64,000 bases of DNA from NCBI RefSeq assembly GCF_902506105.1, contig NZ_LR733304.1:372001-436000 (forward strand), written 5' to 3'. The translations under genes were made by a program, and so were the position numbers. Below the pieces are notes generated by a model. The model was not told the origin of the DNA, searched no databases, and was given only the letters and a program-made list of their open reading frames with translations. Positions within the stretch are counted from its first letter, which is position 1. Every line of letters starts with the position of its first letter. This document shows, in pieces, positions 43,999 to 64,000 of the stretch. Origin of the DNA: Aeromicrobium sp. 9AM (GTDB lineage: Bacteria > Actinomycetota > Actinomycetes > Propionibacteriales > Nocardioidaceae).

Positions 43999-44042
43999 CC
44001 AACCCACCCTGCAATCCCCATAAACCCCCAAGGAGCTCCACC

Positions 44043-47900: not shown

Positions 47901-49202
47901 TCAGCCCAGTATTCGGTCGAGGTAGTCGTTGCTGAACGTACGGGCGGGGTCGAGCTCGTCGCGTACGCCGACGAAGTCGCCGAAGCGGGCGTAGCGGTCG
48001 GCGAAGTACGAGGCGTCGAGGGTGTGGATCTTGCCCCAGTGCGGCCGGCCCTCGTGCGCCGTGAAGATGTCCCGGGCGGCGGCGAAGTAGGCCTGGTAGT
48101 CGCTGCGCCAGTACTGGTGCACCGCGACGTAGCAGTTGTCGCGCTCGTGGCCCGTCGACATCCACACGTCGTCGGCGGCGGTGAAACGTACCTCGATGGG
48201 GAACGAGATGTTCTCGTGGCCGGCGCCGAACCACGCCTTGAGCTCGGCCAGCACCGACGGCAGCGCCTCGCGCGGCATCGCGAACTCGGACTCGCGAAAC
48301 CGTACGGTGCGCGAGGACACGAACACGTTGAAGGAGTCGTCGACGTACTCCCGGGCGCTGAGCACCGACGCGGCGACGGAGTTGAGGCGCGGGATCCACG
48401 AGCGCTGGCGGGCGACGACGCGGTTGAGTCCCTCGAACACCGTGTTGCTCAGGAACTCGTCGTCGAGCCAGTGCCGGAACCGGCCGACCGGCTGGCGCTC
48501 GGTGCCCTCGGGGACGCGGTTGTTGCGCTTGGTGAGGGCCTTGTCGGTGTGCGGGAACCAGTAGAACTCGAAGTGGTCGTTGTCGTCGACGAGCGCGTCG
48601 ACCTGGTCGAGCACGTCCGGCAGCGCCATCGGCTCCTCACGGGCGTGCAGCAGGAACGCGGGTACGCACTGCAGCGTCACCTCAGTCACGATGCCGAGTG
48701 CGCCGAGCGTCACCCGGGCGGCGCCGAACCACGTGTGGCTCTCGTCGATCTCGAGCACCTCACCGTCAGCCGTGACGATCTGCACGCCGACGACTGCGGC
48801 CGAGATGCCGAACAGCTTGCCGCCGGTGCCGTGCGTGCCGGTCGACACCGCGCCGGCGACGGATTGCGGGTCGACGTCGCCGAGGTTGGGCAGCGCGAGC
48901 CCGAGCGCCTTGAGCTTGGGGTTGAGGTCGTGCAGCGAGATGCCGGCCTGCACGCGCACGCGCCCGGTCGCCGAGTCGTGCGCGAGGATGCGGCTCATGC
49001 GGTCGAGCCGCAGCAGCACACCGTCGGTCGCGGCGATCGGGGTGAACGAGTGGCTGGCGCCGACTGCCTTGACCTTGAGGCCTGCCGCTGCGGCCGCACG
49101 GACGATCCGCTGGACGTCAGCAGTCGACGCGGGATGCTCGATGCGTACGGGATGGGTCTCGACGCTGCGGCTCCAGTTGGTCCACGTGTTCGCGGTCGTC
49201 AT
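47901..49202 (-). CDS. D-arabinono-1,4-lactone oxidase-like FAD oxidoreductase
   Basis: 433 residues. PCMH FAD domain (residues about 10-180: VKAVGASHSFTPIAATDGV and GAVSTGTHGTGGKLFGISAAVV) then the ALO domain (VHQYWRSDYQAYF to RPHWGKIHTLDA and the C-terminal FGDFVGVRDELDPARTFSNDYL). Such oxidases act on aldono-lactones or sugar alcohols. No His-FAD linkage is apparent in the first segment (GASHS is present, though). Its start overlaps the stop of the upstream aldolase gene; the two form a pair. Confidence 0.88.
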   Translation of the reverse strand: MTTANTWTNWSRSVETHPVRIEHPASTADVQRIVRAAAAAGLKVKAVGASHSFTPIAATDGVLLRLDRMSRILAHDSATGRVRVQAGISLHDLNPKLKALGLALPNLGDVDPQSVAGAVSTGTHGTGGKLFGISAAVVGVQIVTADGEVLEIDESHTWFGAARVTLGALGIVTEVTLQCVPAFLLHAREEPMALPDVLDQVDALVDDNDHFEFYWFPHTDKALTKRNNRVPEGTERQPVGRFRHWLDDEFLSNTVFEGLNRVVARQRSWIPRLNSVAASVLSAREYVDDSFNVFVSSRTVRFRESEFAMPREALPSVLAELKAWFGAGHENISFPIEVRFTAADDVWMSTGHERDNCYVAVHQYWRSDYQAYFAAARDIFTAHEGRPHWGKIHTLDASYFADRYARFGDFVGVRDELDPARTFSNDYLDRILG

Positions 49203-50371
49203 CCGAAGTTCTTGCCCTCTCCGCGATACGTCGGGACGCGCCGGGTCGTGCCGTCGCCAGAGACGAGGGCGATCTCGTCGAACCGCTCGCACATCTCGCC
49301 GGCCTTGGCGTAGCGCATCACCACTCGGTCGCCGATAGACAAAGACTTCGCTACCTGACCCTTGACAGGTGTTTGCACCTCGCCGGCGCCTTCAGTGCCG
49401 ATCGGCTTGAGCCCCTCGGGCCAGGTCGGGGTGGGTTGCCGGTTCTTGTTGGTCGGCCCGGATGCGATATAGCCGCCGGCGAACAACGTCGCGATGTCAG
49501 GTGCGGGCTTGCGTACGACGGAGAGCACGAAGTAGGCCGCCGGTCGTGCGTCGAACGCGTCGTAGCCGTCGAACAGGGTCGGCGCGAACAGGCCCGATCC
49601 GGCGGTGAGCTCGGTGATCGCCGGGTCGGCGCCGGTGACCTCGAGGCTGCCGGTGCCGCCGGCGTTCACGATCTCGAGCTTCGCGTGCCCGGACACTGCG
49701 TCGACGACCTTGGACCGTCGGTCCAGCAGCTCGGCGGCGGAGCGCTTCTTGATCAGGCGTACGGCCGGTGACGAGTCGGGCAGCCCCGCGATCTGCGCGT
49801 CGTAGAACATCAGCCCGACGAGATCGAATCCCTGACGGCTGGCGATGGCCGCGGCCAGCGTGCCGGCGTCCTCGGCGGTGTGCACAGGGGAGCGGCGTAC
49901 GCCCAGGTGTGCGGGCCCGAACTTGAGCGACGCATCGACGTCGATGCAGACCCGGATCGACGGGTGACCGGTGCCCAGCAGGCTGTCGATGTGGTCCAGC
50001 GACTCGGTGCTGTCGACCATCACGGTGATCTGCGCGCGACGGCGTTCGTCGGCGACGAGGTAGTCGAGCGCACGGTGGCTCGTCGTCGGGTAGGCCAGCA
50101 GGATGTCGTCGATGCCGTTGTCGACTAGCCAGTTGGACTCGGCGAGGGAGTAGGACATGACGCCCGCGAACCCGTCCCGCGCGAGGGTGCCCTCGAGGAT
50201 CGAGCGCACTCGCACGGACTTGCTGGCGACCCGGATCGGCACGCCGTTGGCGCGGCGCACGAGATCGTCGGCGTTGGCCCACAGGGACGGCTCGTCGATC
50301 ACCGCGAACGGGGTGTCCAGTGTCTGGGTCGCGGCGAGCAGTCGGGCATACGAGCTGGACGGTTGTGGCAC
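49199..50371 (-). CDS. PLP-dependent amino-acid deaminase/aldolase (alanine racemase N-terminal fold)
   Basis: 390 residues from GTG 50371; a GTG at 50389 is also in frame. A CATACT box lies 7 bases upstream (50384-50379, reverse), which supports 50371. The N-terminal barrel carries the PLP Lys in RVASKSVRVRSIL, and the domain resembles D-threonine aldolase and D-serine dehydratases (CIDVDASLKFGPAHLGVRR, NAGGTGS). The C-terminal beta domain has ATLFAGGYIASGPTN. Its ATGA overlap with the lactone-oxidase gene suggests joint sugar or amino-acid catabolism; substrate unknown. Confidence 0.86.
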   Translation of the reverse strand: MPQPSSSYARLLAATQTLDTPFAVIDEPSLWANADDLVRRANGVPIRVASKSVRVRSILEGTLARDGFAGVMSYSLAESNWLVDNGIDDILLAYPTTSHRALDYLVADERRRAQITVMVDSTESLDHIDSLLGTGHPSIRVCIDVDASLKFGPAHLGVRRSPVHTAEDAGTLAAAIASRQGFDLVGLMFYDAQIAGLPDSSPAVRLIKKRSAAELLDRRSKVVDAVSGHAKLEIVNAGGTGSLEVTGADPAITELTAGSGLFAPTLFDGYDAFDARPAAYFVLSVVRKPAPDIATLFAGGYIASGPTNKNRQPTPTWPEGLKPIGTEGAGEVQTPVKGQVAKSLSIGDRVVMRYAKAGEMCERFDEIALVSGDGTTRRVPTYRGEGKNFG

Positions 50372-51763: not shown

Positions 51764-51835
51764 CATAATCCTTATATTTATTGACAGAGATTCGGGTTGC
51801 GAGCATTATCGAGGCGTGTGATGTGGATCGCATTC
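51764..51835 (+). promoter_or_regulatory. Twin promoter P1 of the ABC importer operon
   Basis: TTGACA (51781-51786), 17-bp spacer, CATTAT (51804-51809). The AT-rich upstream element ATAATCCTTATATTTATT and the downstream GTGGATCGCATT are shared with P2 at 55895. The leader before the importer ATG is about 80 bases long. Near-identity over about 70 bp with P2 points to a common regulator. Confidence 0.8.
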
Positions 51836-51896
51836 TCACCGCAACTCATTGAAGGCACGGCGATCTCCACTGTCGCCGCCAATCCGGAGGTACTTC

Positions 51897-53054
51897 ATGA
51901 ATCACCGACTCCCCCTCGCGTGCATCGCGCTCGCAGCGACGATGTTCATCGCAGGTTGCGCAGGCGACAAGGGCACAGGCGACGAGCCGACGAAGGCTGC
52001 CGCGGCCACGTCTGGTGTCGAGGCTGCGAAGGCCGCACTGCCGGCCCTGCAGAAGGGCACCAGCGTCTTGCCCTCTGGTGACTCGCGGCCGATCAAGAAG
52101 GGAGCGCGGGTGGCCCTTCTGTCGGCTGGGCAGAACAATCTTTCCGCTCAAGGGCCCATCGACGGTGCCAAAGCGGCCTGCAAGGTAGCGGGGTGGACCT
52201 GTGACGTCTTCGACGGTGCCAGCGATCCCACGAAGTACTCCGGCTTGGTCAACCAGATCGTCGCGGCCGGCTACGACGGCATCATCGACGTCGGCGTCGA
52301 CTGCCCGCTGATCTCCACGGCGTTGGATGCGGCGAAGAAGAAGGGCATCAAGATCATCAGTGCCTACGCGTTCGACTGCAACGACCCCAAGTACAAGGGA
52401 GAGAAGCAGTTCGACGGAGAGATGCTTTACGTGGACGACCGCACCGGCGCTGAGCAGTTCGTTGCGTTCGGTCGCGCTCAAGCGACGGCGATGCTGGCCC
52501 TGTCCGGGGGCAAGCAGAAGATCTTGCACGTGACCGACGGCGAGTTCAGAATCCTCGACTACATTGCTGAAGGGCTCGAGGCTGGTCTGGCCGATGACCC
52601 GTCCACCAAGGTCGTCGAGACGCTCGACATCAAGGCTGCTGACTTGGTCACCGGCAAGGCGGCGCAGCAGATCTCGTCCCTGCTGACCAAGAACCCCACT
52701 GCCACGGCGATCACCACGCCGTACTTCGCGGCCGGGATGGCAGCCGTCTACCCGTCGCTGCAGTCGACCGGCAAGGCGGGGAAGATGTTCGTCCAGGGCG
52801 CGGAGGGCCAGGCACCCGAGCTCGACATGGTTCGCGCTGGCGTCGCCTCGTTCGTCAACATCGCCTCCCCTGATTGGACTGGCTGGGCGGCGGTCGACAC
52901 GCTGAACAGCGTCCTGATCGACAAGCCGGTGGTGTCCAGCGGCGTCGGGTTCACGATCGTCACGAAGGAAAACGCCACTGGCAAGAAGGGCTCGACGTTC
53001 AGCGAGCTGCCGGACTACCAGAGCGCCTACCGCAAGGCATGGGGCGTCAGTTGA
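51897..53054 (+). CDS. ABC transporter substrate-binding lipoprotein (CUT2 / RbsB-like)
   Basis: 385 residues from ATG 51897 with GGAGG 6 bases upstream. Signal peptide ends at lipobox FIAGC. Mature domain resembles periplasmic sugar-binding proteins of family 4: KGARVALLSAGQNNLSAQGPIDGAKAACK, DGIIDVGVDCPLISTALDAAKKKGIKIISAYAF and AAGMAAVYPSLQSTGKAG. The ligand is unknown; CUT2 importers take pentoses, autoinducers and various cyclic compounds. First gene of an importer operon with ATPase and permease. Its stop overlaps a TTG start. Confidence 0.9.
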   Translation: MNHRLPLACIALAATMFIAGCAGDKGTGDEPTKAAAATSGVEAAKAALPALQKGTSVLPSGDSRPIKKGARVALLSAGQNNLSAQGPIDGAKAACKVAGWTCDVFDGASDPTKYSGLVNQIVAAGYDGIIDVGVDCPLISTALDAAKKKGIKIISAYAFDCNDPKYKGEKQFDGEMLYVDDRTGAEQFVAFGRAQATAMLALSGGKQKILHVTDGEFRILDYIAEGLEAGLADDPSTKVVETLDIKAADLVTGKAAQQISSLLTKNPTATAITTPYFAAGMAAVYPSLQSTGKAGKMFVQGAEGQAPELDMVRAGVASFVNIASPDWTGWAAVDTLNSVLIDKPVVSSGVGFTIVTKENATGKKGSTFSELPDYQSAYRKAWGVS

Positions 53055-54637
53055 CAAGCACCTTCCATGAGGTTGGTCAGGTTGAGCGCGAGCAGGCTCT
53101 CGCGCTCAACCTGACCAACGTCTCCAAGACGTTCGGGGTCACCAAAGCCTTGGACGGCGTCAGCCTGCAGGTCCGCAAGGGCAGCATCCACGCATTGCTC
53201 GGTGCCAATGGCTCCGGCAAGTCGACGCTCGTCAAGATCATCGCGGGCGTGGAGTCGGCTGACCACGGCAGCCAGGTCGAGGCGGGCGGTCGCACCGTGG
53301 CCGGCCACCACACATCTCCGGCTTTCGCACGCGAGACCGGGATCCACGTCGTGCACCAGGATCCCGCGGTCTTCGGGCATCTCTCCGTCGCAGACAACCT
53401 GGCGATCGGCCGCGCCGCCGGGTACGACGCCGGGCTGGTCGCTCCGATCCGTGAACGTCGCGTGCACCGTCACACGCGGGCCGTTCTCGACCGATTCGGC
53501 CTCGACATCGATCCCAAGACACCAGTTGCCGCTCTCGGACCAGGGGCTCGTGCGATGCTCGCCATCGCGCGTGTGCTCCAGGACCAGGAACAGGACACCG
53601 GCGGCGTGCTGATCCTTGACGAGCCCACCGCGTCTCTGCCGAGCGCCGAGGCCGACCAGTTGATCGCGACGCTTCAGCGGTGGGCCGCTGCGGGCCAGGC
53701 GATCGTCTATGTCACGCATCGTCTCGACGAGGTCACCCGGATGGCCGACACCGTGACCGTCCTGCGCGACGGCGCTCACGTCACGACGCGGCAGGCCGCG
53801 GGTCTGACCGAGGAGGACCTGGTGGAGCTGATCGTCGGACGGAGTGTCGCGGAAGCGTTCCCGCCTTCCCGCCCCATCGTCGATGCCGAGCCCCTTCTCG
53901 AGGTGCGTGGCCTATGCTCCGGTCGCATCCAGGATCTTTCCTTCGACGTGCGCCGTGGCGAGATCCTCGGCATCGGCGGCTTGCTCGGATCAGGGCGGAC
54001 CACCCTGCTCAGTACGCTGTTCGGCGTCCGACAACCGGCAGCCGGAGAGATCCGACTCGATGGCGAACCGTTGGCTGCCGGGGGCATTCGTGCGGCGATC
54101 CGCCGCGGGATCGTGATGGTCCCAGAAGACCGCTCCCGAGAAGCGGCTCTCCCCGGTTTGACGACGCGCGAGAACCTCTCGGCGTCGAGGGTGAGTCGCT
54201 ACTGGCGGCGCGGAAGACTGGACCACCGATTGGAGGCTCGCGAGGCCCGCGGCTCGATCGCGGAGTTCCTGGTGCGAGTCGCGTCGGACGCCCAGCCGTT
54301 TCACACATTGTCGGGAGGCAATCAGCAGAAGGTGATCCTCGCACGTTGGCTGCGGCTGACACCGGGCCTGATCCTTCTCGACGAACCCACCCAAGGCGTT
54401 GACGCCGGAGCACGCGCCGAGATCTACCGGTTGGTGCGCACTGCAGTCGATGCCGGAGCCAGCGCGATCGTGGTCAGCAGTGATCCTGAAGAACTCGCCA
54501 AGATGGCCGACCGCGTCCTGGTCATTTCGCGAGGCAAGCTCTCGGCGGAGCTCACCGCACCCGCCGTCACTGCGCACCGCATCGTCGAGGCCTCGTTCGG
54601 CAGCGCCCACCCCCATGAGGAGAGAGAACGCCCATGA
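53051..54637 (+). CDS. ABC transporter ATP-binding protein, RbsA-like (two modules)
   Basis: 528 residues from TTG 53051 (TTGA overlap with the binding-protein stop); no better start is found. Module 1 (about 15-255): GANGSGKST and VLILDEPTASL, but its signature is degenerate (ALGPGARAMLAIA instead of LSGGQ). Module 2 (about 265-520): GLLGSGRTTL as a weak Walker A, LSGGNQQKVILARW and LILLDEPTQGVD. This asymmetric pattern is usual for sugar CUT2 ATPases. A perfect 21-bp hairpin lies in its first codons. It powers the permease at 54634. Confidence 0.9.
   Translation: MTSTFHEVGQVEREQALALNLTNVSKTFGVTKALDGVSLQVRKGSIHALLGANGSGKSTLVKIIAGVESADHGSQVEAGGRTVAGHHTSPAFARETGIHVVHQDPAVFGHLSVADNLAIGRAAGYDAGLVAPIRERRVHRHTRAVLDRFGLDIDPKTPVAALGPGARAMLAIARVLQDQEQDTGGVLILDEPTASLPSAEADQLIATLQRWAAAGQAIVYVTHRLDEVTRMADTVTVLRDGAHVTTRQAAGLTEEDLVELIVGRSVAEAFPPSRPIVDAEPLLEVRGLCSGRIQDLSFDVRRGEILGIGGLLGSGRTTLLSTLFGVRQPAAGEIRLDGEPLAAGGIRAAIRRGIVMVPEDRSREAALPGLTTRENLSASRVSRYWRRGRLDHRLEAREARGSIAEFLVRVASDAQPFHTLSGGNQQKVILARWLRLTPGLILLDEPTQGVDAGARAEIYRLVRTAVDAGASAIVVSSDPEELAKMADRVLVISRGKLSAELTAPAVTAHRIVEASFGSAHPHEERERP
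53072..53119 (+). promoter_or_regulatory. Perfect 21-bp mRNA hairpin inside the ATPase gene start
   Basis: The arms 53072-53092 and 53099-53119 are perfect reverse complements around the loop CAGGCT, starting 17 bases after the binding-protein stop. It lies within codons of the ATPase. Such intra-operonic hairpins often protect or separate the upstream message, giving an excess of binding protein; here this is inferred. Confidence 0.75.
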
Positions 54638-55659
54638 CCACCACCGACGCTGCTGTCGCAGCCACCTCCGAGAACGCCCCCGTCACCGCGGCGCGGCGCC
54701 AGCACGTGGCCCGGTCACTTGTCGAGCGCTACGGCCTGGTCATCTTGTTCGTGGTCGTCTTCGTGGCGTTCGCCAGCGTGTGGAACTACCCGGCGACCTT
54801 CCGCAGCAGCGACAACGTGCAACAGGTCCTGCGCAGCCAGGCCATTCCCGCGATCCTGGCGCTGGCCAGCATCCTGCCCCTGGTGTGCGGCCAGTTCGAC
54901 CTGACCGTCGGGTCCGTCGCCGGCATCAGCGCGATCACGGTCGCCGGGGCGATCACCGACCACCACCTTTCGCTCGCCCTCGGCATCGTGCTCGCACTTG
55001 GTATCGGGCTGGTCATCGGGCTGGTCAATGGGCTCCTTGTCGCATACGTCGGAGTCAACTCCCTGATCGCGACGCTCGGAGTCGGCATCGCCGTCAGCGG
55101 GCTGGTCGAGTGGTACGCAGGCGGCCGGTCGATCTTGATCGCGACGACCGGCAGCCTGGCGAAGGTTGGCAGCCGCAACTGGTTCGGGGTGCCGTCGCTG
55201 GTCTACTTCGTGGCCGGCTTCGCGGTCGTGTTCTACTACCTGCTGCAACACACCCCGCTCGGTCGCTACCTCCACTCCATCGGTTCCAACGCCACCGCGG
55301 CGCACCTCGTCGGGCTGGACGTGCGCCGCTTGACGCTGCTGGCGTTCGTCGTGTCGGCATTGGTGTCGGCCATCGCCGGTGTGCTGTACCTCGGAGCGAT
55401 CGGCAGCGCCTCCGCCTCAGGCGGCGGCATCCCGCTGACCTTGCCGGCCCTGGTGGCTGTTTTCCTCGGCGCCACCACCATCAAGCCCGGACGATTCAAC
55501 GTCCTCGGTACGTTGGTCGCGGTGTATCTGCTGGCTTTCGCCCTTTCTGGCCTGAGCCTCAACGGCGTCGAGAGCTGGGTGCAGAACCTCGTCACCGGCA
55601 CCGGTCTCGTGCTGGCGGTCACCTTCTCGACCCTCGCGGCTCGTGAGGGGTCACCCTGA
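54634..55659 (+). CDS. ABC transporter permease, RbsC-like
   Basis: 341 residues with about eight to ten membrane helices. Family motifs: LPLVCGQFDLTVGSVAGISAI (the branched/CUT2 permease signature), NGLLVAYVGVNSLIATLG and GRYLHSIGSNATAAHLVGLD. It completes the CUT2-type importer (binding protein, ATPase, permease). ATG overlaps the ATPase stop region by 4 bases. A hairpin terminator follows at 55772. Confidence 0.92.
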   Translation: MTTTDAAVAATSENAPVTAARRQHVARSLVERYGLVILFVVVFVAFASVWNYPATFRSSDNVQQVLRSQAIPAILALASILPLVCGQFDLTVGSVAGISAITVAGAITDHHLSLALGIVLALGIGLVIGLVNGLLVAYVGVNSLIATLGVGIAVSGLVEWYAGGRSILIATTGSLAKVGSRNWFGVPSLVYFVAGFAVVFYYLLQHTPLGRYLHSIGSNATAAHLVGLDVRRLTLLAFVVSALVSAIAGVLYLGAIGSASASGGGIPLTLPALVAVFLGATTIKPGRFNVLGTLVAVYLLAFALSGLSLNGVESWVQNLVTGTGLVLAVTFSTLAAREGSP

Positions 55660-55771
55660 CCCAGCCGGTGCCGGTGACGAGGTGCTGTGGCAAAGATGCG
55701 CGGCAGCAGCCGAAGCCGATCGGACGAATCGATCTGGTTTTCACAGGTCTGCCAGCTAGCCGCGTACGAGG

Positions 55772-55795
55772 CACCCCGCGCGGTTGCGCGGGGTG
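55772..55795 (+). terminator. Terminator of the ABC importer operon
   Basis: CACCCCGCGC (55772-55781), loop GGTT, GCGCGGGGTG (55786-55795): perfect 10-bp G/C stem. It lies 113 bases after the permease stop in the 344-bp gap 55660-56003, which otherwise holds only promoter P2; I see no gene in it. Confidence 0.75.
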
Positions 55796-55894
55796 AATCG
55801 CGGTCGAGCAGGTCGACCGCACTCAGACGCTCGAGCACCCGATCGGGACATGCGTCGCGCCACGATGCGATGCGAGCGCTTGTGTGCCCCAAAA

Positions 55895-55964
55895 TATAAT
55901 CCTGATATTTATTGACAGAGATTACGGTGGCGACCATGATCGATGTGTGACGTGGATCGCATTG
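55895..55964 (+). promoter_or_regulatory. Twin promoter P2 of the hydantoinase operon
   Basis: TTGACA (55912-55917), 17-bp spacer, CATGAT (55935-55940), with ATAATCCTGATATTTATT upstream and GTGGATCGCATT downstream, matching P1 almost base for base. AAATAT/ATATTT arms flank the AATCCTG centre as a small dyad upstream of the -35 box, a possible operator. Confidence 0.8.
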
Positions 55965-56003
55965 GTGGTCACGGGCACTCAAACCGCAGCGAAAGGATCG
56001 AGC

Positions 56004-58085
56004 GTGGAGAACGTCTCGCAGGATCGCCCATGGGTTGTCGGAATCGATGTCGGTGGGACATTCACTGACATCGTCGCGCTCGACCTCGTCGCAGGTGAGG
56101 TGCGTGACGGGAAGGTGCTCACGACCCCCGAGCAGGAAATTGGGGTGCTCGAGGCGATACGACAAATCGGTATCGCACCTGGGCAGATCGGTGAGCTCGT
56201 ACACGGCCATACGGTCGGCATCAACGCTGTGCTGAGCCGCGTTGGTGCCAAGACGGCGCTACTCGCCACCGACGGCCACCGCGACCTGCTCGACATCGGG
56301 CGGATGAACCGTGAGTTCGGTCCGCAGTTCTACGACCCCACATGGGTGCGCCCCCACCAGGCGCGGCCCATTGTGCCGAGACATCTGCGAATCGGTGTGC
56401 CCGAACGAATGTCGTCTGACGGCGACGTCGTACGTGCCCTCGACTCGCGTGCTGTCCGCGAGGCGGCGGAGCAGCTCAAGGTCGACGGCGTCGAGAGCGT
56501 CGGAATTTGCTTCGTCAACGCCTATAACAACCCCGTCCACGAGCAGCGCGCTGCCGAGATCGTCCGGGAGGTGCTTCCGGAGGCCTATGTGCAGACTTCG
56601 TCGCTGTATTCGGTGACGAAGGAACACGAACGCACCACGACCGTGGCTCTCGATGCGTACGTCGGCCCTGCTGTCACGCACTATCTGCAGCGACTCCGCG
56701 GTGTGTTGGCTGACGCTGGCTTTGACGGTCTGTTGTGGATCATGACCATGAACGGTGGTGTTGCAACCGTCGAACATGCTGCCAAGGCGCCAGTGTTCCA
56801 ACTCGTCTCCGGACCGGTCGGTGGCGTCGCGGGCGCGGTCCGCCTCGCCCAATCCGGCGGCCCGGCAAACTTGCTGACGATGGACGTTGGCGGAACCAGC
56901 ACCGATGTCGCAAGCGTCGTGTCGGCCGCTACCCCCCTAACCGACCTCTGGACTCTGGAGCAGGGGCTGACCATGACGATGCCGCTGGTCGACGTCGGAA
57001 GCGTCGGATCTGGCGCAGGCAGCATCATCTCCATGGACTCCTTGGGTGCATTGCGCGTCGGCCCCGCGTCAGCCGGCTCGACGCCGGGCCCCGCGTGCTA
57101 CGGCCGCGGCGGTTCGGAGCCGACGTTGACCGATGCCTGCGTGGCGCTCGGCATCTTGCAGCCCGACCTGTTTGCGGGCGGATCGATGACACTCGACACA
57201 GCCCTGGCGCACAAGGCACTCTCGACGGCTGGCGATGGCCTCGGCCTCGACGCCATCGGGTTGGCCTCGGCCGCCTACGCGGTCGCCTGCGAGGACATGG
57301 CAGCCAAGATCCGGTCGGTTTCGGTCTACCGGGGGATGGACCTGCGCGACTTTGCCCTGCTGCCGTTCGGCGCGGCTGGCCCCATGCTGGCCAACCAAGT
57401 GGCCGAGATCCTGGGCGTCGACACCATTGTGGTGCCATACAGTCCTGGCCAGTTCTCGGCGCTCGGCCTGCTCGGCAGCGACCTACGAGTCACGACCGCA
57501 ACGGCACCCATGTCGGTCCTTACCGGGCCCGGCGCCACCAAGCTCGAGCAGTCTTTCGCGGCAATGGAGGACGGCATCCGGGGCGACCTCGTGGCAGAAG
57601 GTCTCGACGTCAGCGCCTTGCAGTTCGAGCGGGCCTTCTTCGGCATGTACGTGGGACAGACATGGGACAACCGGCTGCGGTTGGATGAGGGTCCGCTCAC
57701 CGCCGACACGATCGCCGACATGGTTGAAAGGTTTCACACCTTCTACCAGCAGACCTACGGATTCTCGGCACGCGAGCTGCCGGTCATGTGCACGAGCCTC
57801 GAGGTCACGGGTGTCATCAAACGCTCCGCAGAGGTGACACGGCAGGTGTCGGACGACCACGGTACGTCGTTCGTTCGGACCGCCACCGTCATCCCGACGG
57901 GTCATGGGCCGCTCGAGGCCGAAGTTCACCAGCGCGAGCGGCTCACGTCCGACGCCAAGATCGAGGGCCCGGCGCTTGTCGTCGAGCGATTCGCCACCAC
58001 GTTCATCCAGCCGGGTTGGTCCGGCGGGCTACGAGATGACGGTTGTCTCGTCGTCAGTCGCAACGAAGAGAGGGGTTCGCGATGA
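56004..58085 (+). CDS. hyuA: Hydantoinase/oxoprolinase A-type subunit (ATP-dependent)
   Basis: 693 residues from GTG 56004 (AAAGGA 6 bases upstream). An actin-like ATPase of the HyuA/ApcA/acetone-carboxylase beta class: VGIDVGGTFTDIVALD at the N-terminus binds phosphate, LTMDVGGTSTDVASV is the second hydantoinase-A motif, and GPACYGRGGSEPTLTDACVALG is conserved. The enzyme phosphorylates a carbonyl or amide to drive ring opening or carboxylation. Forms a complex with the 58082 product, to which it is coupled (ATGA). Substrate unknown: hydantoin, oxoproline, acetone- or acetophenone-like ketones are known for the family. Confidence 0.9.
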   Translation: MENVSQDRPWVVGIDVGGTFTDIVALDLVAGEVRDGKVLTTPEQEIGVLEAIRQIGIAPGQIGELVHGHTVGINAVLSRVGAKTALLATDGHRDLLDIGRMNREFGPQFYDPTWVRPHQARPIVPRHLRIGVPERMSSDGDVVRALDSRAVREAAEQLKVDGVESVGICFVNAYNNPVHEQRAAEIVREVLPEAYVQTSSLYSVTKEHERTTTVALDAYVGPAVTHYLQRLRGVLADAGFDGLLWIMTMNGGVATVEHAAKAPVFQLVSGPVGGVAGAVRLAQSGGPANLLTMDVGGTSTDVASVVSAATPLTDLWTLEQGLTMTMPLVDVGSVGSGAGSIISMDSLGALRVGPASAGSTPGPACYGRGGSEPTLTDACVALGILQPDLFAGGSMTLDTALAHKALSTAGDGLGLDAIGLASAAYAVACEDMAAKIRSVSVYRGMDLRDFALLPFGAAGPMLANQVAEILGVDTIVVPYSPGQFSALGLLGSDLRVTTATAPMSVLTGPGATKLEQSFAAMEDGIRGDLVAEGLDVSALQFERAFFGMYVGQTWDNRLRLDEGPLTADTIADMVERFHTFYQQTYGFSARELPVMCTSLEVTGVIKRSAEVTRQVSDDHGTSFVRTATVIPTGHGPLEAEVHQRERLTSDAKIEGPALVVERFATTFIQPGWSGGLRDDGCLVVSRNEERGSR

Positions 58086-60007
58086 CCATCGCACCCGAGA
58101 CAACGTCGTCAGCAGCACCCGCCGGCCTGTACGACACGATCCGGTACGGATTGATCGAGATCGCACGCGAGATGAATCTCTCCTTGATGCGGAGCGCTTT
58201 CTCGCCCGTGGTGCGCGACATCCTCGACTGCACCACCGCCGTGCACTTGAAGACTGAGCACGGCTGGGAGATGGTCGCCTGCTTCGAGGGCTGCATGCAG
58301 CACGCGTTCACGTCGCAGCACATAGCCAACTTCACGATGGACGAGTGGGACCTCGACCGCACCGAGCCCGGCGACGTCATCTTCGTCAATGACCCGTGGC
58401 GCGGCGCGATCCATCAGTCGGACGTCAATCTGCTTCGACCAATCCACATCGACGGCGAGGTCCGCGCGGTCCTGCACTCCACGTCGCACGTTGTCGATCT
58501 TGGTGGGCCGATCCCCGGCGGGTTCTCCAACGGTGTCGAGACCGCGTTCGAGGAGCAGCTCAAGTTTCCGCCGACTCTCCTCTACGCCGACGATGTGCCG
58601 GTGCGTCCGGCGTTCAACTACTTGCTCGAGAACACGCGTGTCCCGTCGATGCTGCTTGGTGACATTCGCGCCCTCTACGGATGTCTCGTCGTCGGCGAGG
58701 GGCGCTTGCGCGACCTCCTTGCCCGCTACGGAACCGACACTGTCTTCTCCGCGGCGCAGCATGCCATCGATGTCACCGAGGCGAGCATGCGTGCGGGTAT
58801 CCGGCAAATCCCGGACGGCGACTACCGCATTGAGGATTTTCTCGATGATGACGGCGTCGATTCCGAGCCACTGCCAATGGTCGTCACCGTCAAGGTGCGC
58901 GGCGATTCGATGGAGATCGATTTCTCAGGCACCGGACGTCAGCCCCGCGGTAACGTCGGGACGGCGTGGGTCGAGGCCACCAGGTGCATCGAGGCGGTCA
59001 AGATGCTCGTCGACCCCGAGCCGCCGGTCAACAGCGGTACCTTGCGGCCGATCGAGACGATCCTGCCGCCAGGTAGCGCAGTCTGCGTGCTACCGCCATC
59101 GAGCTGCTCCAACCACATGGACGTGGGGTCCCGATCGATCAACATGGTCGTCAAGGCAATCTCTGGAGCGCTGGTCTCCAAATCCATCGCGGCTGACTCA
59201 GGAACCTGCGCGACGATCGTCATGGGCGGCATCGACATGCGGCCAGGTCGCGAAGGCAACCAGTGGGGGTCTTTTGCCGGACCTGGCGGAGGCTGGGGTG
59301 GTACCTGGAAGGGTGACGGCCTCACCTATTGCATCGCCCCGATCGGAAACTGCCGCACCTCGGTGCACGAGCATGCCGAAGCCGAGTCGCCGACCGTGGT
59401 CGGTCAGATGGAAGTCATGCCGGACTCAGCCGGGGCGGGCAAGCACCGCGGCGGATTCGGCGGCATCTACACGATGGTCGCGATGTCCGACACCTTGGTC
59501 ACCATTACCTCAGACCGGGTCCGCCACGGCGCAGATGGTGTCGTAGGCGGTGGCCGCGGAATGTCGTCATATGCCTGGTACATCCCGCAGTTCGACTGGT
59601 CCAAGCACATGAACCCTCGTATGCTGCACGGCCTTGAACCTCTATATGGAGCGTTCGACGAAAATGGTGTGCCCAGCGCTGACCGCGGATCGGTCGAGGG
59701 CGGCGCTACGAACTCCACCGGCAAGCTCGCTGGCGTCGTCGTCAAGGCAGGTGACGCTCTGCGAGTTGTCATCGGCGGCGGCGGCGGGTGGGGTGATCCT
59801 CTTGAGCGCGATCTGGAGGCCATAGCCAACGATGTCCGCGATGGCCTGTACTCGGCCGGCTACGCGGCCGAGGCGTTCGGAGTGGTCTTCGAGGACGGCG
59901 AGGTTCGGGATGTCGAGTCTCGCGAACGTCGCCGGCATCTGGCCGCCGAGCGTGAAGCTGGCAGATGGACGGTCCCCTCTGCCTCGCCCACCGACTGGAT
60001 CCTGTGA
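58082..60007 (+). CDS. hyuB: Hydantoinase B-type subunit
   Basis: 641 residues, somewhat longer than the usual 550-600. Hydantoinase_B domain throughout: EIAREMNLSLMRSAFSPVVRD, GDVIFVNDPWRGAIHQSDV, HSTSHVVDLGG, then MEIDFSGTGRQPRGNVGTAW, CSNHMDVGSRSIN and GGGGGWGDPLERD near the C-terminus. The histidines and acidic residues of the central part would bind a divalent metal. It is the catalytic partner of HyuA in ATP-dependent hydrolysis or carboxylation. A small zinc-ribbon gene follows 57 bases later with GAAAGGAG upstream. Confidence 0.9.
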   Translation: MTIAPETTSSAAPAGLYDTIRYGLIEIAREMNLSLMRSAFSPVVRDILDCTTAVHLKTEHGWEMVACFEGCMQHAFTSQHIANFTMDEWDLDRTEPGDVIFVNDPWRGAIHQSDVNLLRPIHIDGEVRAVLHSTSHVVDLGGPIPGGFSNGVETAFEEQLKFPPTLLYADDVPVRPAFNYLLENTRVPSMLLGDIRALYGCLVVGEGRLRDLLARYGTDTVFSAAQHAIDVTEASMRAGIRQIPDGDYRIEDFLDDDGVDSEPLPMVVTVKVRGDSMEIDFSGTGRQPRGNVGTAWVEATRCIEAVKMLVDPEPPVNSGTLRPIETILPPGSAVCVLPPSSCSNHMDVGSRSINMVVKAISGALVSKSIAADSGTCATIVMGGIDMRPGREGNQWGSFAGPGGGWGGTWKGDGLTYCIAPIGNCRTSVHEHAEAESPTVVGQMEVMPDSAGAGKHRGGFGGIYTMVAMSDTLVTITSDRVRHGADGVVGGGRGMSSYAWYIPQFDWSKHMNPRMLHGLEPLYGAFDENGVPSADRGSVEGGATNSTGKLAGVVVKAGDALRVVIGGGGGWGDPLERDLEAIANDVRDGLYSAGYAAEAFGVVFEDGEVRDVESRERRRHLAAEREAGRWTVPSASPTDWIL

Positions 60008-60064
60008 TCCGATCGCGCCCGGGCACCGCGCCCGGACCCGATTCAACCTACGAAAGGAGCCCTC

Positions 60065-60325
60065 ATGGGTGTTGATCGCTTGCTCTTCGGGCCGCCGCAA
60101 AAAGCCACAGTCAGCGTCGAGCGGGTCAGGACGGGCCAGACGTGTCCCGCCTGCGGCTCGAGTGATGTGGCCCGCTACCCGGTGGCCAACTTCCTCGGCC
60201 CACGCATGGTCGTCAAGTGCCAGGATTGCTTCGAAAACCTCGAAACGACCGTACCGACGGCTGACGACCACTGGCCCCCGTGGGCATCAGCGACGTCCGA
60301 CTGGCCAGCCTCTCGCAACGGTTAG
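60065..60325 (+). CDS. Small zinc-ribbon protein, possible third subunit
   Basis: 86 residues with a zinc ribbon: C27-x2-C30 (CPACGSSD) and a second C-x2-C (KCQDC), about 30 residues apart. The rest is short (MGVDRLLFGPPQKATVSVERV; DDHWPPWASATSDW). I recognise no named family. It directly follows hyuAB and has its own AAAGGAG site. Acetone and acetophenone carboxylases carry a small extra (gamma) subunit that binds zinc, so this may be the analogue here; inference from position and metal motif only. Confidence 0.7.
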   Translation: MGVDRLLFGPPQKATVSVERVRTGQTCPACGSSDVARYPVANFLGPRMVVKCQDCFENLETTVPTADDHWPPWASATSDWPASRNG

Positions 60326-60395: not shown

Positions 60396-61190
60396 ATGGG
60401 TTCACTAGACGGCAGGACAGTCATCATCTCGGGCGGAGCCCGAGGCATGGGAGCCGCAGAGGCTCGGCTCATCGCGGCCGCCGGCGGCAGCGTCGTTGTC
60501 GGTGACGTGTTGGTCGACGAGGCTCGGGCAGTCGCGCGTGAGATCGAGCAGGAAGGCGGCCGAGCGGTCGCGGTCGAACTCGATGTCACGAACGACGACG
60601 ACTGGAAGCGCGCGACGGCGATCGCCACTGAGCTGGGCGGCGCCGATGCGTTGGTCAACAACGCCGGCATCAGTGAGCGCGTCGGCATCCTCGACACCGA
60701 CCGGGAGGGCTGGGATCGAGTCCTGGCCGTCAACCTGACCGGGTGCATGCTCGGCATCCGCGCCGTCGCGATCGGTATGCGTGAGCGGGGCAATGGGTCG
60801 ATCGTCAATGTCTCGTCCATCGCAGGGCTGACCGCCTACTCATCTGCTGCCTACTCAGCCAGCAAGTGGGGGCTGCGCGGTCTGTCGAAGGTCGCGGCGC
60901 TCGAGCTAGGACCATTCGGCATCCGTACCAACTCGATCCATCCCGGCATCATCGAGACGCCGCTCATCAGCGACGTGACCCCGCTGGTGCGCTCGTCGTT
61001 CGCTGCCGTCACGCCTCTCAAGCGTGTGGGACAGTCCAACGAGGTCGCCGAGCTGGTGACCTTTTTGTGCTCTGACGCGTCCTCGTACATCAACGGCGCT
61101 GAGATCGCGGTGGACGGCGGGTTTTCGGCTGGTGGGGCGTTCCAGGGCGTCATCAACGAAATCACGTGGCAGTCCTCATCGTCGTCGTAG
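60396..61190 (+). CDS. Short-chain dehydrogenase/reductase (NAD-type, steroid/alcohol class)
   Basis: 264 residues, classical SDR: SGGARGMGAAEARLI binding loop, LDVTNDDDW, NNAGIS, catalytic Ser in NVSSIAGL, YSASKWG with the Y-x3-K pair, and IHPGIIETPL. It resembles 3alpha/20beta-hydroxysteroid and secondary-alcohol dehydrogenases. It follows the hyuAB-zinc ribbon genes and would oxidise the alcohol that yields the ketone substrate, or reduce a ketone product. No own promoter visible, so it is probably in the same transcript. Confidence 0.88.
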   Translation: MGSLDGRTVIISGGARGMGAAEARLIAAAGGSVVVGDVLVDEARAVAREIEQEGGRAVAVELDVTNDDDWKRATAIATELGGADALVNNAGISERVGILDTDREGWDRVLAVNLTGCMLGIRAVAIGMRERGNGSIVNVSSIAGLTAYSSAAYSASKWGLRGLSKVAALELGPFGIRTNSIHPGIIETPLISDVTPLVRSSFAAVTPLKRVGQSNEVAELVTFLCSDASSYINGAEIAVDGGFSAGGAFQGVINEITWQSSSSS

Positions 61191-61218: not shown

Positions 61219-61246
61219 TTGCAGAATCTCGGCTATCTAGTATCAT
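61219..61246 (+). promoter_or_regulatory. Promoter of the acyl-CoA dehydrogenase pair
   Basis: TTGCAG (61219-61224), 16-bp spacer, TATCAT (61241-61246), ending 7 bases before the ATG at 61254. It differs from P1 and P2, so this operon may respond to another signal. Confidence 0.5.
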
Positions 61247-61253
61247 AGTTTGC

Positions 61254-62471
61254 ATGAATACAGTGGCCGGTCCATCGACGGACGTCGGAGATTTCCGCGC
61301 GCGCGTCAGGGCGTTCCTGGACAGTGAGCTGCCAGACGACTGGGCCGGGGTAGGCAAACTCGACCATGCTGAGGCAAGGGAGTTTGCTCAACGTTGGCGG
61401 GCATCGCTCGCCGAGCATGGGTTCTTGGCGGCCTCGTGGCCCGTGGAATACGGCGGCGCTGGTCTCACTGACGCCGAACGGGTCCTGCTTGCCGAGGAGT
61501 TCGCTCGCGTGGGCGTACCCACTGGGATCATGAACGACATCTTCAGCATCGTCATGATTGGCAACACCCTGCTCCACTGGGGCACGGAGGAGCAGAAGAA
61601 GCACTTCCTGCCGCGCATCTTGTCTGGTCAGGATGTCTGGTGCCAGGGCTACTCCGAGCCAGACTCTGGCTCCGACCTCGCCTCGCTGTCCACCCGCGCG
61701 GTGCTTGACGGTGACGAATGGGTCATCAACGGCCAGAAGATCTGGACCTCCGGTGGCCACCTCGCCGACTGGATCTTCGTGCTCGTCCGCACCAACTCCG
61801 AGGCTCCTGCGCATCGCGGCATCACGATGCTGCTGGTACCGATCGAGCAGGACGGTGTCGACGTTCGACCGATCAAGAACATCGCGGGGGAGAGCGAGTT
61901 CAATGAGGTCTACTTCACCGACGCGCGGTGCCCCAAGGAGAACGTGGTCGGGGAGGTCGACAAGGGCTGGCCGGTAGCCATGACCTTGCTCGGCTTCGAG
62001 CGGGGGGAGTCTGCGGCCACGCTGCCGATCATGTTCCGTGCGGAACTCGATCGGCTCTTGGATCTGGCTCGCGAGAACGGTGCGGCCGCGGAGCCCGTCA
62101 TGCGTGACGCGCTGGCTGACATCTACATCGACAACGAGGTCATGCGGTTCCTGGGTCGCGACTCGCTGGCTCGCTTCTTGGCCGGTCACGCGCCCGGACC
62201 GGACGCCGCGATCAGCAAGCTCTTCTGGAGCGAGTACCACGAGAAGGCCACCGAGTTGGCGCTCGACGTGCTCGAGCGCGAGAGTCTGGTGGCCGAGGGG
62301 CGTCGACCGACCAACACCACGCTGTTCCAGACCGACGACGTCGGCGCGCCCAACACCAGCGCCTCGTGGATCACCACGGCCCTGAACTCGCGCTCTGGAA
62401 CCATCTACGCCGGCACCTCCGAGATCCAGAAGACGATCATCGGTGAGAAGCTGCTCGGCCTCCCCAAGTGA
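61254..62471 (+). CDS. Acyl-CoA dehydrogenase, FadE type, subunit 1
   Basis: 405 residues, full length. N-terminal helical domain (WRASLAEHGFLAASWPVEYGGAGL), the middle FAD-binding beta domain (YSEPDSGSDLASLSTRA, GQKIWTSGGHLADWI), and a C-terminal bundle ending SGTIYAGTSEIQKTIIGEKLLGLPK. The C-terminal motif belongs to the subunit of actinobacterial heteromeric dehydrogenases such as those acting on steroid side chains. The next gene begins TGATG across its stop. Together they probably form an alpha-beta complex. Confidence 0.9.
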   Translation: MNTVAGPSTDVGDFRARVRAFLDSELPDDWAGVGKLDHAEAREFAQRWRASLAEHGFLAASWPVEYGGAGLTDAERVLLAEEFARVGVPTGIMNDIFSIVMIGNTLLHWGTEEQKKHFLPRILSGQDVWCQGYSEPDSGSDLASLSTRAVLDGDEWVINGQKIWTSGGHLADWIFVLVRTNSEAPAHRGITMLLVPIEQDGVDVRPIKNIAGESEFNEVYFTDARCPKENVVGEVDKGWPVAMTLLGFERGESAATLPIMFRAELDRLLDLARENGAAAEPVMRDALADIYIDNEVMRFLGRDSLARFLAGHAPGPDAAISKLFWSEYHEKATELALDVLERESLVAEGRRPTNTTLFQTDDVGAPNTSASWITTALNSRSGTIYAGTSEIQKTIIGEKLLGLPK

Positions 62472-63604
62472 TGACGACCGCACAGAAGGCAGCCCCCATG
62501 GATCCCTTGCTCGACGACGACCAGCTCTCGTACCAGCGCAGTCTGCGGGCCTTCCTCGACGTGACCTGGGGCGACGCCCAGGTCCGAGCCGACCTGGATG
62601 CTCCCTCGCCCGACCGCGACACCTGGCGCCGTCTCGCGGCCGACCTCGGTGTGGCCGGCTTGAGCATCCCCGAGCAGTACGGCGGCTCGGGTGGGGCGCC
62701 GGCCGAGGCACTGCTCGTGGCAGAAGAGCTCGGGCGGGCGATTTACGGCGGCCCGTATCTGAGCACCGTGGTGCTTGTCGCCAATGCGATCGTGCTGAGC
62801 GGCGACGAGGCGATGGCTGCGGAGCTGCTGCCGGGCATCGCCAGCGGGGACAAGACCGCCGCTTTGGCGACCATCGACGTCGGCCGTGACCGCTACGCCG
62901 CTCTCGTCCCGGAGGCGACGTCCACGGGGGACGGTTGGGTCGTGAGCGGCGAGGCGCGCCGAGTCATCGACGGCGCCGACGCCGACCACGTGATCGTCGA
63001 GGCCACCACGCCGGCGGGACGCTCGTTGTTCCTCCTCGCCGGCACGGGCGTCGAGCGCACAGCGTCTGAGACGCTCGACCCGACACGTCGCATGGCCACC
63101 CTCGTCCTGAACGAGGCACCGGCGCGACTGATCGGCCGGAACGGCCAGGCCGGGGAGATCCTCGCGGCGATCAAACCCCTCGTGGCACTGGCGCTCGCGG
63201 CCGAGGCGGTCGGCGGCGCGGATCGTGCGACCCGCGACACCGTCGAGTACGCCAAGGTGCGCCACCAGTTCGGCAAGCCGATCGGCTCGTTTCAAGCCGT
63301 CAAGCACCGCTGCGCCGACATGCAGGTGCGGCTCGCCGGCGCGCGCGCCGGTCTGCGCCACGCCGGCTCGGTGCTGGTCGACGGCAGCGAAGACATCGAC
63401 TTGCTTGCGTCGGTCGTCAAGGTCTACGCCACGAAGTCGTACTTCCGGACGGCCGCCGACATGATCCAGCTGCACGGCGGCATCGGCTTCACCTGGGAGC
63501 ATCCTGCGCACTTCCACTTCAAGCGCGCCAAGTCCCTCGAGATCTTGGGCGGGACGCACGTCGAGCTGCGTGCGGCGATCGCCGATGTCGTCCTCGCCGG
63601 CTGA
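62471..63604 (+). CDS. Acyl-CoA dehydrogenase, FadE type, subunit 2
   Basis: 377 residues from ATG 62471 overlapping the previous stop (TGATG). Sequence ends HGGIGFTWEHPAHFHFKRAKSLEILGG, the motif of the second subunit in heteromeric FadE pairs; the FAD-binding middle domain is present but diverged. In known pairs only one half carries the catalytic Glu. Substrates are typically CoA esters of cyclic, branched or side-chain compounds rather than straight chains. Confidence 0.88.
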   Translation: MTTAQKAAPMDPLLDDDQLSYQRSLRAFLDVTWGDAQVRADLDAPSPDRDTWRRLAADLGVAGLSIPEQYGGSGGAPAEALLVAEELGRAIYGGPYLSTVVLVANAIVLSGDEAMAAELLPGIASGDKTAALATIDVGRDRYAALVPEATSTGDGWVVSGEARRVIDGADADHVIVEATTPAGRSLFLLAGTGVERTASETLDPTRRMATLVLNEAPARLIGRNGQAGEILAAIKPLVALALAAEAVGGADRATRDTVEYAKVRHQFGKPIGSFQAVKHRCADMQVRLAGARAGLRHAGSVLVDGSEDIDLLASVVKVYATKSYFRTAADMIQLHGGIGFTWEHPAHFHFKRAKSLEILGGTHVELRAAIADVVLAG

Positions 63605-64000
63605 GACCGCTTCCGGGCCGGCATGGTTCGTCGACGCACTGGCTGACGCCGGCGCGACTCGCGACGTGCAGGTCAAAGGCGCCCGTGTCGAGTACCGCGT
63701 CTGGGGCCCCGAGAGCGCGCCGACGGTGGTGCTCGTCCACGGCGGTGCGGCGCATGGGGGATGGTGGGATCACGTCGCGCCGCTGCTGGCCTCGGACCGC
63801 CGAGTGGCTGCGATCGACCTGACGGGACACGGCTCGAGCGACTCGCGATCTCACTACGACTTCTTCACGTGGTCGGACGAGATCGTCGCTGTCGGCGACG
63901 CCGAGAGCGGAGGCGCCCGGTTCGACGTCATCGGTCACAGCATGGGCGGCGTCGCCGCCCTGACGACGGCTCTGCTGCGCGGCGAACGACTGGGCGGGAC
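63585..64000 (+). CDS. Alpha/beta hydrolase, truncated by the window end
   Basis: At least 138 residues from ATG 63585, overlapping the end of the preceding gene by 20 bases; no stop before 64000. Oxyanion region VVLVHGGAAHGGWWDHV, GHGSSDSR, and the nucleophile elbow GHSMGGVAAL are visible; the acid and histidine lie beyond the window. A likely CoA-thioesterase or hydrolase for the same catabolic pathway, in the operon with the acyl-CoA dehydrogenase pair. Confidence 0.85.
   Translation, partial: MSSSPAETASGPAWFVDALADAGATRDVQVKGARVEYRVWGPESAPTVVLVHGGAAHGGWWDHVAPLLASDRRVAAIDLTGHGSSDSRSHYDFFTWSDEIVAVGDAESGGARFDVIGHSMGGVAALTTALLRGERLGG

Follow-up and report, generated by a model that had tools for sequence, protein, structure and literature searches.

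Probable shared control of a CUT2 importer and a three-part HyuAB-type enzyme in Aeromicrobium sp. 9AM

The stretch of DNA analysed here (the window, 64,000 nucleotides) comes from the Aeromicrobium sp. 9AM genome (4.19 Mb, 9 contigs), where it spans positions 372,001 to 436,000 of contig NZ_LR733304.1 (G000:C7:372001-436000); the 23 other genomes of the genus in our sample of the order measure 3.0 to 4.0 Mb. It carries two operons, one coding for a CUT2-type importer and the other for HyuA and HyuB proteins of the hydantoinase family followed by an 86-aa zinc-ribbon protein (ZnR). Each operon is preceded by a copy of the same promoter region, P1 and P2, respectively. The best reading is that the importer is co-regulated with a new variant of the HyuAB family, one made of three parts. 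Taken as a whole, with a copied promoter, a regulon, a three-part enzyme and ketone carboxylation as its most likely activity, this explanation has in our estimate a probability of about 55%.

The promoter repeat and the regulon

P1 (51762..51834, + strand) includes a box at 51776-51791, TTGACA at 51781-51786 and CATTAT at 51804-51809, while the corresponding elements of P2 (55893..55963, + strand) are the box at 55907-55922, TTGACA at 55912-55917 and CATGAT at 55935-55940. Their local alignment covers 73 columns with 62 identities, 9 mismatches and one 2-base gap (85%), and it scores 90, whereas none of 2000 dinucleotide shuffles exceeds 31 (the highest value reached). An unguided search (84% over 57 bases) also recovered the repeat, as did blastn (85%). 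TTGACA, a 17-base spacer and the CATTAT or CATGAT hexamer are present in both copies; GTGGATCGCATT downstream of the -10 is the same in both, and the gap falls just 3' of the -10. The preliminary description of this DNA had reported an agreement over most of 70 bp with these elements, and its coordinates hold to within a few bases. G+C content of the repeat core is 24%, compared to 68% for the window. With up to 3 mismatches allowed, a 33-base pattern finds P1 and P2 as the sole copies in the genome, and none of 292 other genomes of the order contains a 25-base pattern when up to 2 mismatches are tolerated, leaving this genome alone positive (1/293). The repeat ends 62 bases (P1) and 40 bases (P2) before the start codon. 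A perfect 10-bp inverted repeat with a 4-base loop and no T run (55772..55795, no strand assigned), possibly a terminator, stands between the permease gene and P2, so the two operons are probably separate transcription units.

The box, ATTTATTGACAGAGAT in both P1 and P2, overlaps the -35 hexamer. It recurs in the form AACTATTGACATAGAT in front of the orthologous hyuA of G206, a genome from the same family and another genus, ending 74 bases upstream of the gene. Scanning with the pattern AWYTATTGACANAGAT, which was derived from these same sites, at up to 2 mismatches finds two places in the Aeromicrobium genome (P1 and P2) and one in G206, and none with the reversed pattern. As judged from these sequences, P1 and P2 are descendants of one ancestral hyuA promoter-operator. 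Since the box also precedes hyuA in G206, the older promoter is apparently P2, with P1 the copy that put the CUT2 importer under the same control. The box before hyuA in a second genus, and its absence elsewhere in both genomes, bear out the earlier idea of a regulon, which this comparison supports well at the sequence level; shared control of the two operons appears very probable.

The hyuA operon belongs to a catabolic gene cluster that is kept in G206. Expectation-maximisation motif search over 13 upstream regions of both clusters, with P1 and P2 included, found a 16-bp near-palindrome close to AAnTAnTATCATAnTT common to most of them; the region upstream of the Aeromicrobium CoA (coenzyme A)-transferase gene is without a good copy. 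The pattern WWNTANTATCATANWW at up to 1 mismatch has three matches in the Aeromicrobium genome, all inside the cluster (3/3), and four in G206 with three inside the cluster (3/4), the reversed control giving none in either genome. As the pattern was built from cluster sites, its presence there is by construction, and its scarcity elsewhere is not. One such site, ATCTAGTATCATAGTT, was found by both pattern and matrix searches just before the first acyl-CoA dehydrogenase gene (61235..61250, + strand). The box of the hyuA promoter is a variant of this 16-bp site, and in the window five positions reach the P-box matrix score, four of them in P1/P2 and one at 61235.

The gene following an alpha/beta hydrolase gene just beyond the window (L014:1521-2276, or 64520-65275 in continued window numbering) codes for a regulator with GntR and FCD domains, both over cut-off. 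Its product is 86% identical to the G206 counterpart, and the gene lies inside the cluster in both genomes. The NanR subfamily cut-off is missed (120.5 vs 260 bits). Because of its position and conservation, this regulator is the likely reader of P1/P2 and the cluster sites. A search of relatives for the shared promoter, as the preliminary description had proposed, thus yielded one more match (hyuA of G206), a nearby regulator and, via the 16-bp site, further likely members. For another GntR/FCD gene of the Aeromicrobium cluster (L014:8910-9554), the gene calls in the G206 stretches contain no close counterpart.

Several results weigh against this account of the regulon. Resemblance of P1/P2 to the cluster site is loose: with a matrix trained without the hyuA sites, 74 (P1) and 24 (P2) of 1000 shuffles match or beat the real score, and with a palindromic matrix 61 (P1) and 2 (P2) of 1000 score as high. 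Against the G206 upstream region alone, 26 (P2) and 61 (P1) of 2000 shuffles reach the score, and CATGAT of G206 stands 19 bases after TTGACA, not 17.

The importer operon codes for a lipoprotein-type substrate-binding protein (51897..53054, + strand; Peripla_BP_4, with a lipobox recognised from sequence), a two-domain ATPase (53051..54637, + strand; ABC_tran in two stretches, 416 bits with the xylose ATPase model against a cut-off of 699) and a BPD_transp_2 permease (54634..55659, + strand). A sugar-type binding protein, a two-domain ATPase and a permease of this family in one operon identify it as a CUT2 importer, and no sugar transporter model among the matches listed reaches its cut-off for these proteins. 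The best relative of the binding protein in 244 other genomes of the order is 32% identical; two plasmid records match it at 1e-20 with 30% identity. Directly upstream of the operon, a D-arabinono-1,4-lactone-oxidase-type flavoprotein gene adjoins one for an alanine-racemase-N-like protein (window 47901-50371).

The HyuA-HyuB-ZnR gene set and its ancestry

HyuA (56004..58085, + strand) is the ATP-binding subunit with motifs DVGGTFTD, DVGGTSTD and GSTPGP, HyuB (58082..60007, + strand) carries the metal site (D49, H111, D114, H136), and ZnR (60065..60325, + strand) has cysteines C27, C30, C52 and C55. Hydantoinase_A/Hydant_A_N and Hydantoinase_B domains score over their Pfam cut-offs in HyuA and HyuB, which places both in the family. 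A four-row HyuB profile scan (a two-row profile gave no relative) located 29 named loci in Rhodococcus, Amycolatopsis, Nocardia, Pseudonocardia, Saccharopolyspora, Gordonia, Skermania, Actinomycetospora, Pseudofrankia and Frankia. Together with the window, G206, G587 and G580 these make 33 records, or 31 distinct loci after removal of two duplicates (L059 is a contig of G580 and L066 a contig of G587, with identical HyuA). The three genes are adjacent and in the same order at all 29 named loci, and the set is found at 31/31 distinct loci, in agreement with the earlier claim that HyuAB and the small zinc protein are a fixed unit. ATP motifs of HyuA are kept in 31/31, the four cysteines of ZnR in two CxxC pairs in 31/31 distinct sequences, and the HyuB metal ligands in 33/33 rows (31 distinct). 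The ligand sites were taken from CapB and acetophenone carboxylase as given in PMC5214803 and PMC8453981; through the 7hk5 alignment, HyuB D49 appears to be the counterpart of CapB D41. We consider it probable that HyuA, HyuB and ZnR form a three-part complex.

HyuB relatives fall into two identity bands, 60-92% for one clade and at most 33% among the other matches listed. At 1e-40, 59 of the 394 class genomes (a sample to which G206 does not belong) have a match, and identity of at least 63% is seen solely in Aeromicrobium sp. 9AM, G587 and G580. At 1e-150, the search of 296 class genomes returned the Aeromicrobium gene alone.

A second small zinc protein of 67-82 aa is encoded at 11 of the 29 named loci (L058:189-5456, L072:3096-5362 and nine others). 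In most cases it stands ahead of another HyuA-HyuB pair, whose two families occur at 11 and 10 loci and which a zinc alcohol dehydrogenase family accompanies at 9, and it is related to ZnR (hhalign 98.8%, E 5.5e-17). A small CxxC..CxxC open reading frame (ORF) adjoins HyuA in 28/31 type-1 rows, 11/11 type-2 (sister-type) rows, 7/7 PF08882 rows, these coming from four loci picked for PF08882, and 2/13 other HyuA loci. When the ORF is required to have a coding score over 0, these counts become 24, 10, 7 and 0; the opposite-strand control, made without the score limit, gives 2, 0, 0 and 0.

The HyuA tree had 66 rows: 63 of 65 candidates, those of at least 600 aa, minus two identical ones, plus the window and four structures. 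Both ZnR-bearing types form one clade (100/98) as sisters of each other and fall on the side of the hydantoinases, separated from AcxB, ApcC and the rows linked to PF08882 (99/94). The same clade came out of a subset of 36 rows (100/99), split from the carboxylases at 98/94. The approximately unbiased (AU) test rejects grouping of the ZnR enzymes with the ketone carboxylases (Apc/Acx) at p 0.0006, in a midpoint-rooted tree with several long branches and four characterised references, the tested group having been named after the first tree. Profile scores of HyuA descend from N-methylhydantoinase 7hk5 (477 bits) to CapA (364), ApcC (318) and AcxB (281). The closest solved structures for both HyuA and HyuB are 7hk5 and the caprolactamase 6yra, which rank above the chains of the acetophenone and acetone carboxylases. 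Of the curated NCBIfam models, CapA (430 bits) and CapB (186 bits) come nearest, both far below their cut-off of 1000. HyuA has 693 aa, CapA 696 and ApcC 732.

By sequence, then, HyuA-HyuB-ZnR forms a lineage of its own, distinct from the four characterised enzymes in the sample. Because HyuA forms a clade of its own, it would not be a plain 5-oxoprolinase type, in a tree that held no 5-oxoprolinase of known activity. In the phylogeny, which the preliminary description had proposed, HyuA does not join Apc and Acx. Descent does not support kinship with the ketone carboxylases, of whose activity the gene set was called reminiscent there; this follows from the position of HyuA, the AU test and a ZnR that has no meaningful resemblance in profile to the PF08882 gamma subunit. 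Two separate PF08882-bearing clusters in G376 (L106, L107) each have gamma between two HyuA-type genes, which is the order in the literature for acetophenone carboxylase.

ZnR has no Pfam match. Its comparison with the PF08882 gamma gave an hhalign probability of 3.6% limited to 13 columns (2.4% for the sister type), PF08882 was absent from the Aeromicrobium genome in a family search, and six gamma proteins compared have 119-142 aa vs 86 for ZnR. A relation to VdcD came up through a Foldseek row of weak score (rank 11, E 1.2) and was dropped: the window ZnR has no NCBIfam match, the sister type reaches at most 20 bits with the VdcD model (cut-off 30), and VdcD was found in 0/118 class genomes. 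Among PDB sequences, the four-sequence ZnR query retrieved only 2ayj (E 1.1), the 31-sequence query nothing up to E 10, and the best sister-type match had E 0.21. The predicted ZnR model (mean pLDDT, predicted local distance difference test, 73.5) retrieved nothing from Foldseek with an E of 0.001 or lower. By analogy, ZnR is probably a structural zinc subunit, like the ketone-carboxylase gamma in role and not in descent.

The reaction, its gene neighbourhood and rival explanations

To our knowledge, few ATP-dependent ketone carboxylases have been studied. The scheme in PMC5214803 assigns two genes to hydrolases, three to acetone carboxylases and four or five to acetophenone carboxylases, and treats gamma as missing from hydrolases. 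Judged by gene count, our set looks like an acetone carboxylase, and by HyuA ancestry like a hydrolase.

Downstream of ZnR lie the genes, all on the + strand, for a short-chain dehydrogenase (SDR; 60396..61190, Pfam; closest NCBIfam model ChcB1, 234 bits, cut-off 400), a PimC-like (61254..62471) and an IpdE2/PimD-like (62468..63604) acyl-CoA dehydrogenase, both assigned by Pfam and below the cut-offs of those specific models, and the alpha/beta hydrolase (63585..64000), which extends beyond the window end. The gene identities given in the preliminary description, covering the importer genes, Hydantoinase_A/B, the CxxC...CxxC protein, the SDR and the two acyl-CoA dehydrogenases, were correct. 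Beyond the window, the alpha/beta hydrolase is followed by the GntR/FCD regulator, a MaoC hydratase and an enoyl-CoA hydratase-type gene, with no ring-cleavage hydrolase among the best 25 of 71 models for the latter. Two more acyl-CoA dehydrogenase-like genes (blast only) and a class-III CoA transferase come next, then a ChsH2-type OB-fold protein with a thiolase, the second GntR/FCD gene, a SnoaL-like protein and an F420-type luciferase-like oxidoreductase, and at the end a second thiolase with a protein like the first OB-fold one (blast only), a PaaK-like ligase and a LIV-like importer. Gene calls in this cluster came from a codon-usage script, and library scans covered part of the genes. 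Both thiolases of this large catabolic stretch (L014:2615-17001) thus stand beside a ChsH2-type OB-fold protein, one recognised by Pfam and one by blast, and we take these pairs to be retro-aldolase-like.

The cluster is largely kept, in rearranged order, in G206. Identity between the two genomes is 84% for HyuA, 92% for HyuB, 90% for ZnR, 82.5% for the SDR and 87% and about 80% for the acyl-CoA dehydrogenases. A route in which a cyclic ketone is carboxylated and its ring then opened to give a pimeloyl-CoA-like acid was considered and dropped, the PimC/PimD/IpdE2 likeness being below cut-offs and the 25 best models for the enoyl-CoA hydratase-type gene including no ring-cleavage hydrolase. Elsewhere in the window (41493-46390), genes for a TauD-type dioxygenase, an NMT1-type binding protein and a luciferase-like monooxygenase, with apparent ATP-binding cassette permease and ATPase genes between them, are perhaps a cluster for uptake and oxidation of sulfonate or a similar compound.

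Neighbours were counted in flanks of up to 10 kb on each side of the 29 named loci, with one member per family annotated. An SDR occurs at 23 loci, an aldehyde dehydrogenase at 22, a LuxR-GAF regulator at 22, a CoA ligase at 8, another ligase type at 4 and a thiolase at 5. At four loci (Pseudonocardia, Frankia), SDR, thiolase and ligase genes directly 3' of ZnR correspond to tasks of the published acetophenone route. Out of 44 families present at 3 or more loci, the 20 annotated by Pfam (one without a match) include no aminotransferase or amidase. These neighbours lean, tentatively, to ketone carboxylation, to which we give somewhat less than even odds, with hydrolysis of a cyclic amide the slightly less favoured of the two activities. 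The ketone-carboxylase label is a possible one, a working hypothesis that fits the gene neighbours and not the ancestry.

In the mechanism we propose, P1 and P2 would be two copies of one promoter-operator within a catabolic regulon, and the GntR/FCD regulator whose gene closes the run would most likely read both. The SDR would make a ketone, which HyuA-HyuB-ZnR would carboxylate: by family analogy, HyuA may phosphorylate the carbonyl group and the HyuB metal site may complete the reaction (for metal ligands and the two-site mechanism, see PMC8453981 and PMC5543143). The carboxylated product would then become a CoA thioester and pass to the acyl-CoA dehydrogenases. The importer and the enzyme probably handle one compound together.

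A serious competitor, to which we give a substantial minority chance, keeps the regulon and makes the enzyme an ATP-dependent hydrolase opening a cyclic amide, imide or hydantoin, with ZnR as a stabilising accessory and the SDR and acyl-CoA dehydrogenases acting afterwards. HyuA on the hydantoinase side, its top profile scores with 7hk5 and CapA and its hydantoinase length fit such an enzyme, but hydantoinases have two genes in the scheme of PMC5214803 and ZnR is present at every distinct locus; CoA ligases, thiolases and alcohol and aldehyde dehydrogenases around the set suit ketone chemistry, and the 20 neighbour families annotated by Pfam include no aminotransferase or amidase. Far less probable is a single origin, with ZnR a far-diverged gamma and the enzyme a diverged acetone carboxylase type hidden by long branches. 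This would account for the gene order of the set, alpha, beta and then the small zinc protein, which acetone carboxylases share, for the order zinc protein-alpha-beta of the sister type, as in acetophenone carboxylase (both orders according to PMC5214803), and for the two CxxC pairs shared by ZnR and gamma. Opposed to it are the AU result, read with the post hoc group and long branches in mind, the negligible ZnR-gamma profile probability and the difference in length.

It is also unlikely, though slightly less so, that P1/P2 is a mere local duplication near a -35-like sequence without co-regulation, and that the importer serves another compound such as a sugar alcohol. The distribution of the importer speaks for this and against our account: in a search covering L012-L014, L048-L050 and the 29 named loci, the binding protein and permease had no match at 1e-5 in stretches around 30 other distinct loci, and no CUT2 importer stands beside the G206 hyuA cluster, so its role could differ. 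The binding protein without a close relative in the order and the lactone-oxidase-type gene upstream (47901-49202) point the same way. Yet both copies keep the -35, spacer, -10, leader and a similar distance to the start codon, and in another genus hyuA is preceded by the same box, of which neither genome has any further copy at up to 2 mismatches. Amycolatopsis deserti has a gene for a two-domain CUT2-like ATPase (L068:1927-3414; 34% identity over 524 aa) on the hyuA strand, about 4.5 kb ahead of hyuA, and may thus be a second case in which a CUT2 importer accompanies HyuAB-ZnR; any permease and binding protein belonging to this ATPase would fall beyond the stretch covered. The pairing is not general, and it may not be unique to Aeromicrobium sp. 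9AM.

A rare hydantoinase-side clade with an apparently unrelated zinc protein in at least 10 actinobacterial genera does not agree with the rule of PMC5214803 that sets carboxylases, with their small zinc subunit, against two-gene hydrolases, and the ZnR clade offers a direct test of what the small zinc subunit does. Depending on the outcome, the family would gain a new carboxylase or else a three-part hydantoinase, the latter missing from that published scheme, and the promoter copy would exemplify recruitment of an importer into a regulon. We speculate, with less confidence than in either activity, that this is a third, independently evolved ATP-dependent ketone carboxylase, made of a hydantoinase-type pair and an unrelated zinc ribbon, with an importer recruited by a copied promoter.

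Comparison with known systems

No described actinobacterial HyuAB enzyme with a zinc ribbon was recognised in the literature, a search that covered few subscription journals and does not prove absence. The acetone carboxylase AcxABC of Xanthobacter and Aromatoleum is alike in having HyuA-type and HyuB-type subunits and then a small four-cysteine zinc protein. It differs in that the window HyuA lies outside the Acx/Apc clade, ZnR is not PF08882 and HyuB has 641 aa vs 776 for the chain in the acetone carboxylase structure. Acetophenone carboxylase ApcABCDE of Aromatoleum aromaticum shares the family domains, ATP motifs and, by alignment, the metal-ligand tetrad, as well as the dehydrogenase/ligase/thiolase logic of the pathway described in PMC5214803. 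Unlike it, the window and G206 clusters have no second HyuA-type alpha' and the Aeromicrobium genome no PF08882 gamma. The VdcD-type subunit of hydroxyarylic acid decarboxylases is likewise a small zinc ribbon with two CxxC pairs that occurs in the context of a (de)carboxylase, although the sister type scores under the cut-off of 30 and the window ZnR has no match. Caprolactamase CapAB and N-methylhydantoinase (6yra, 7hk5) are described without a zinc-ribbon partner, and HyuA is far below the CapA cut-off, but they provide the closest curated model and structures and share the same side of the tree.

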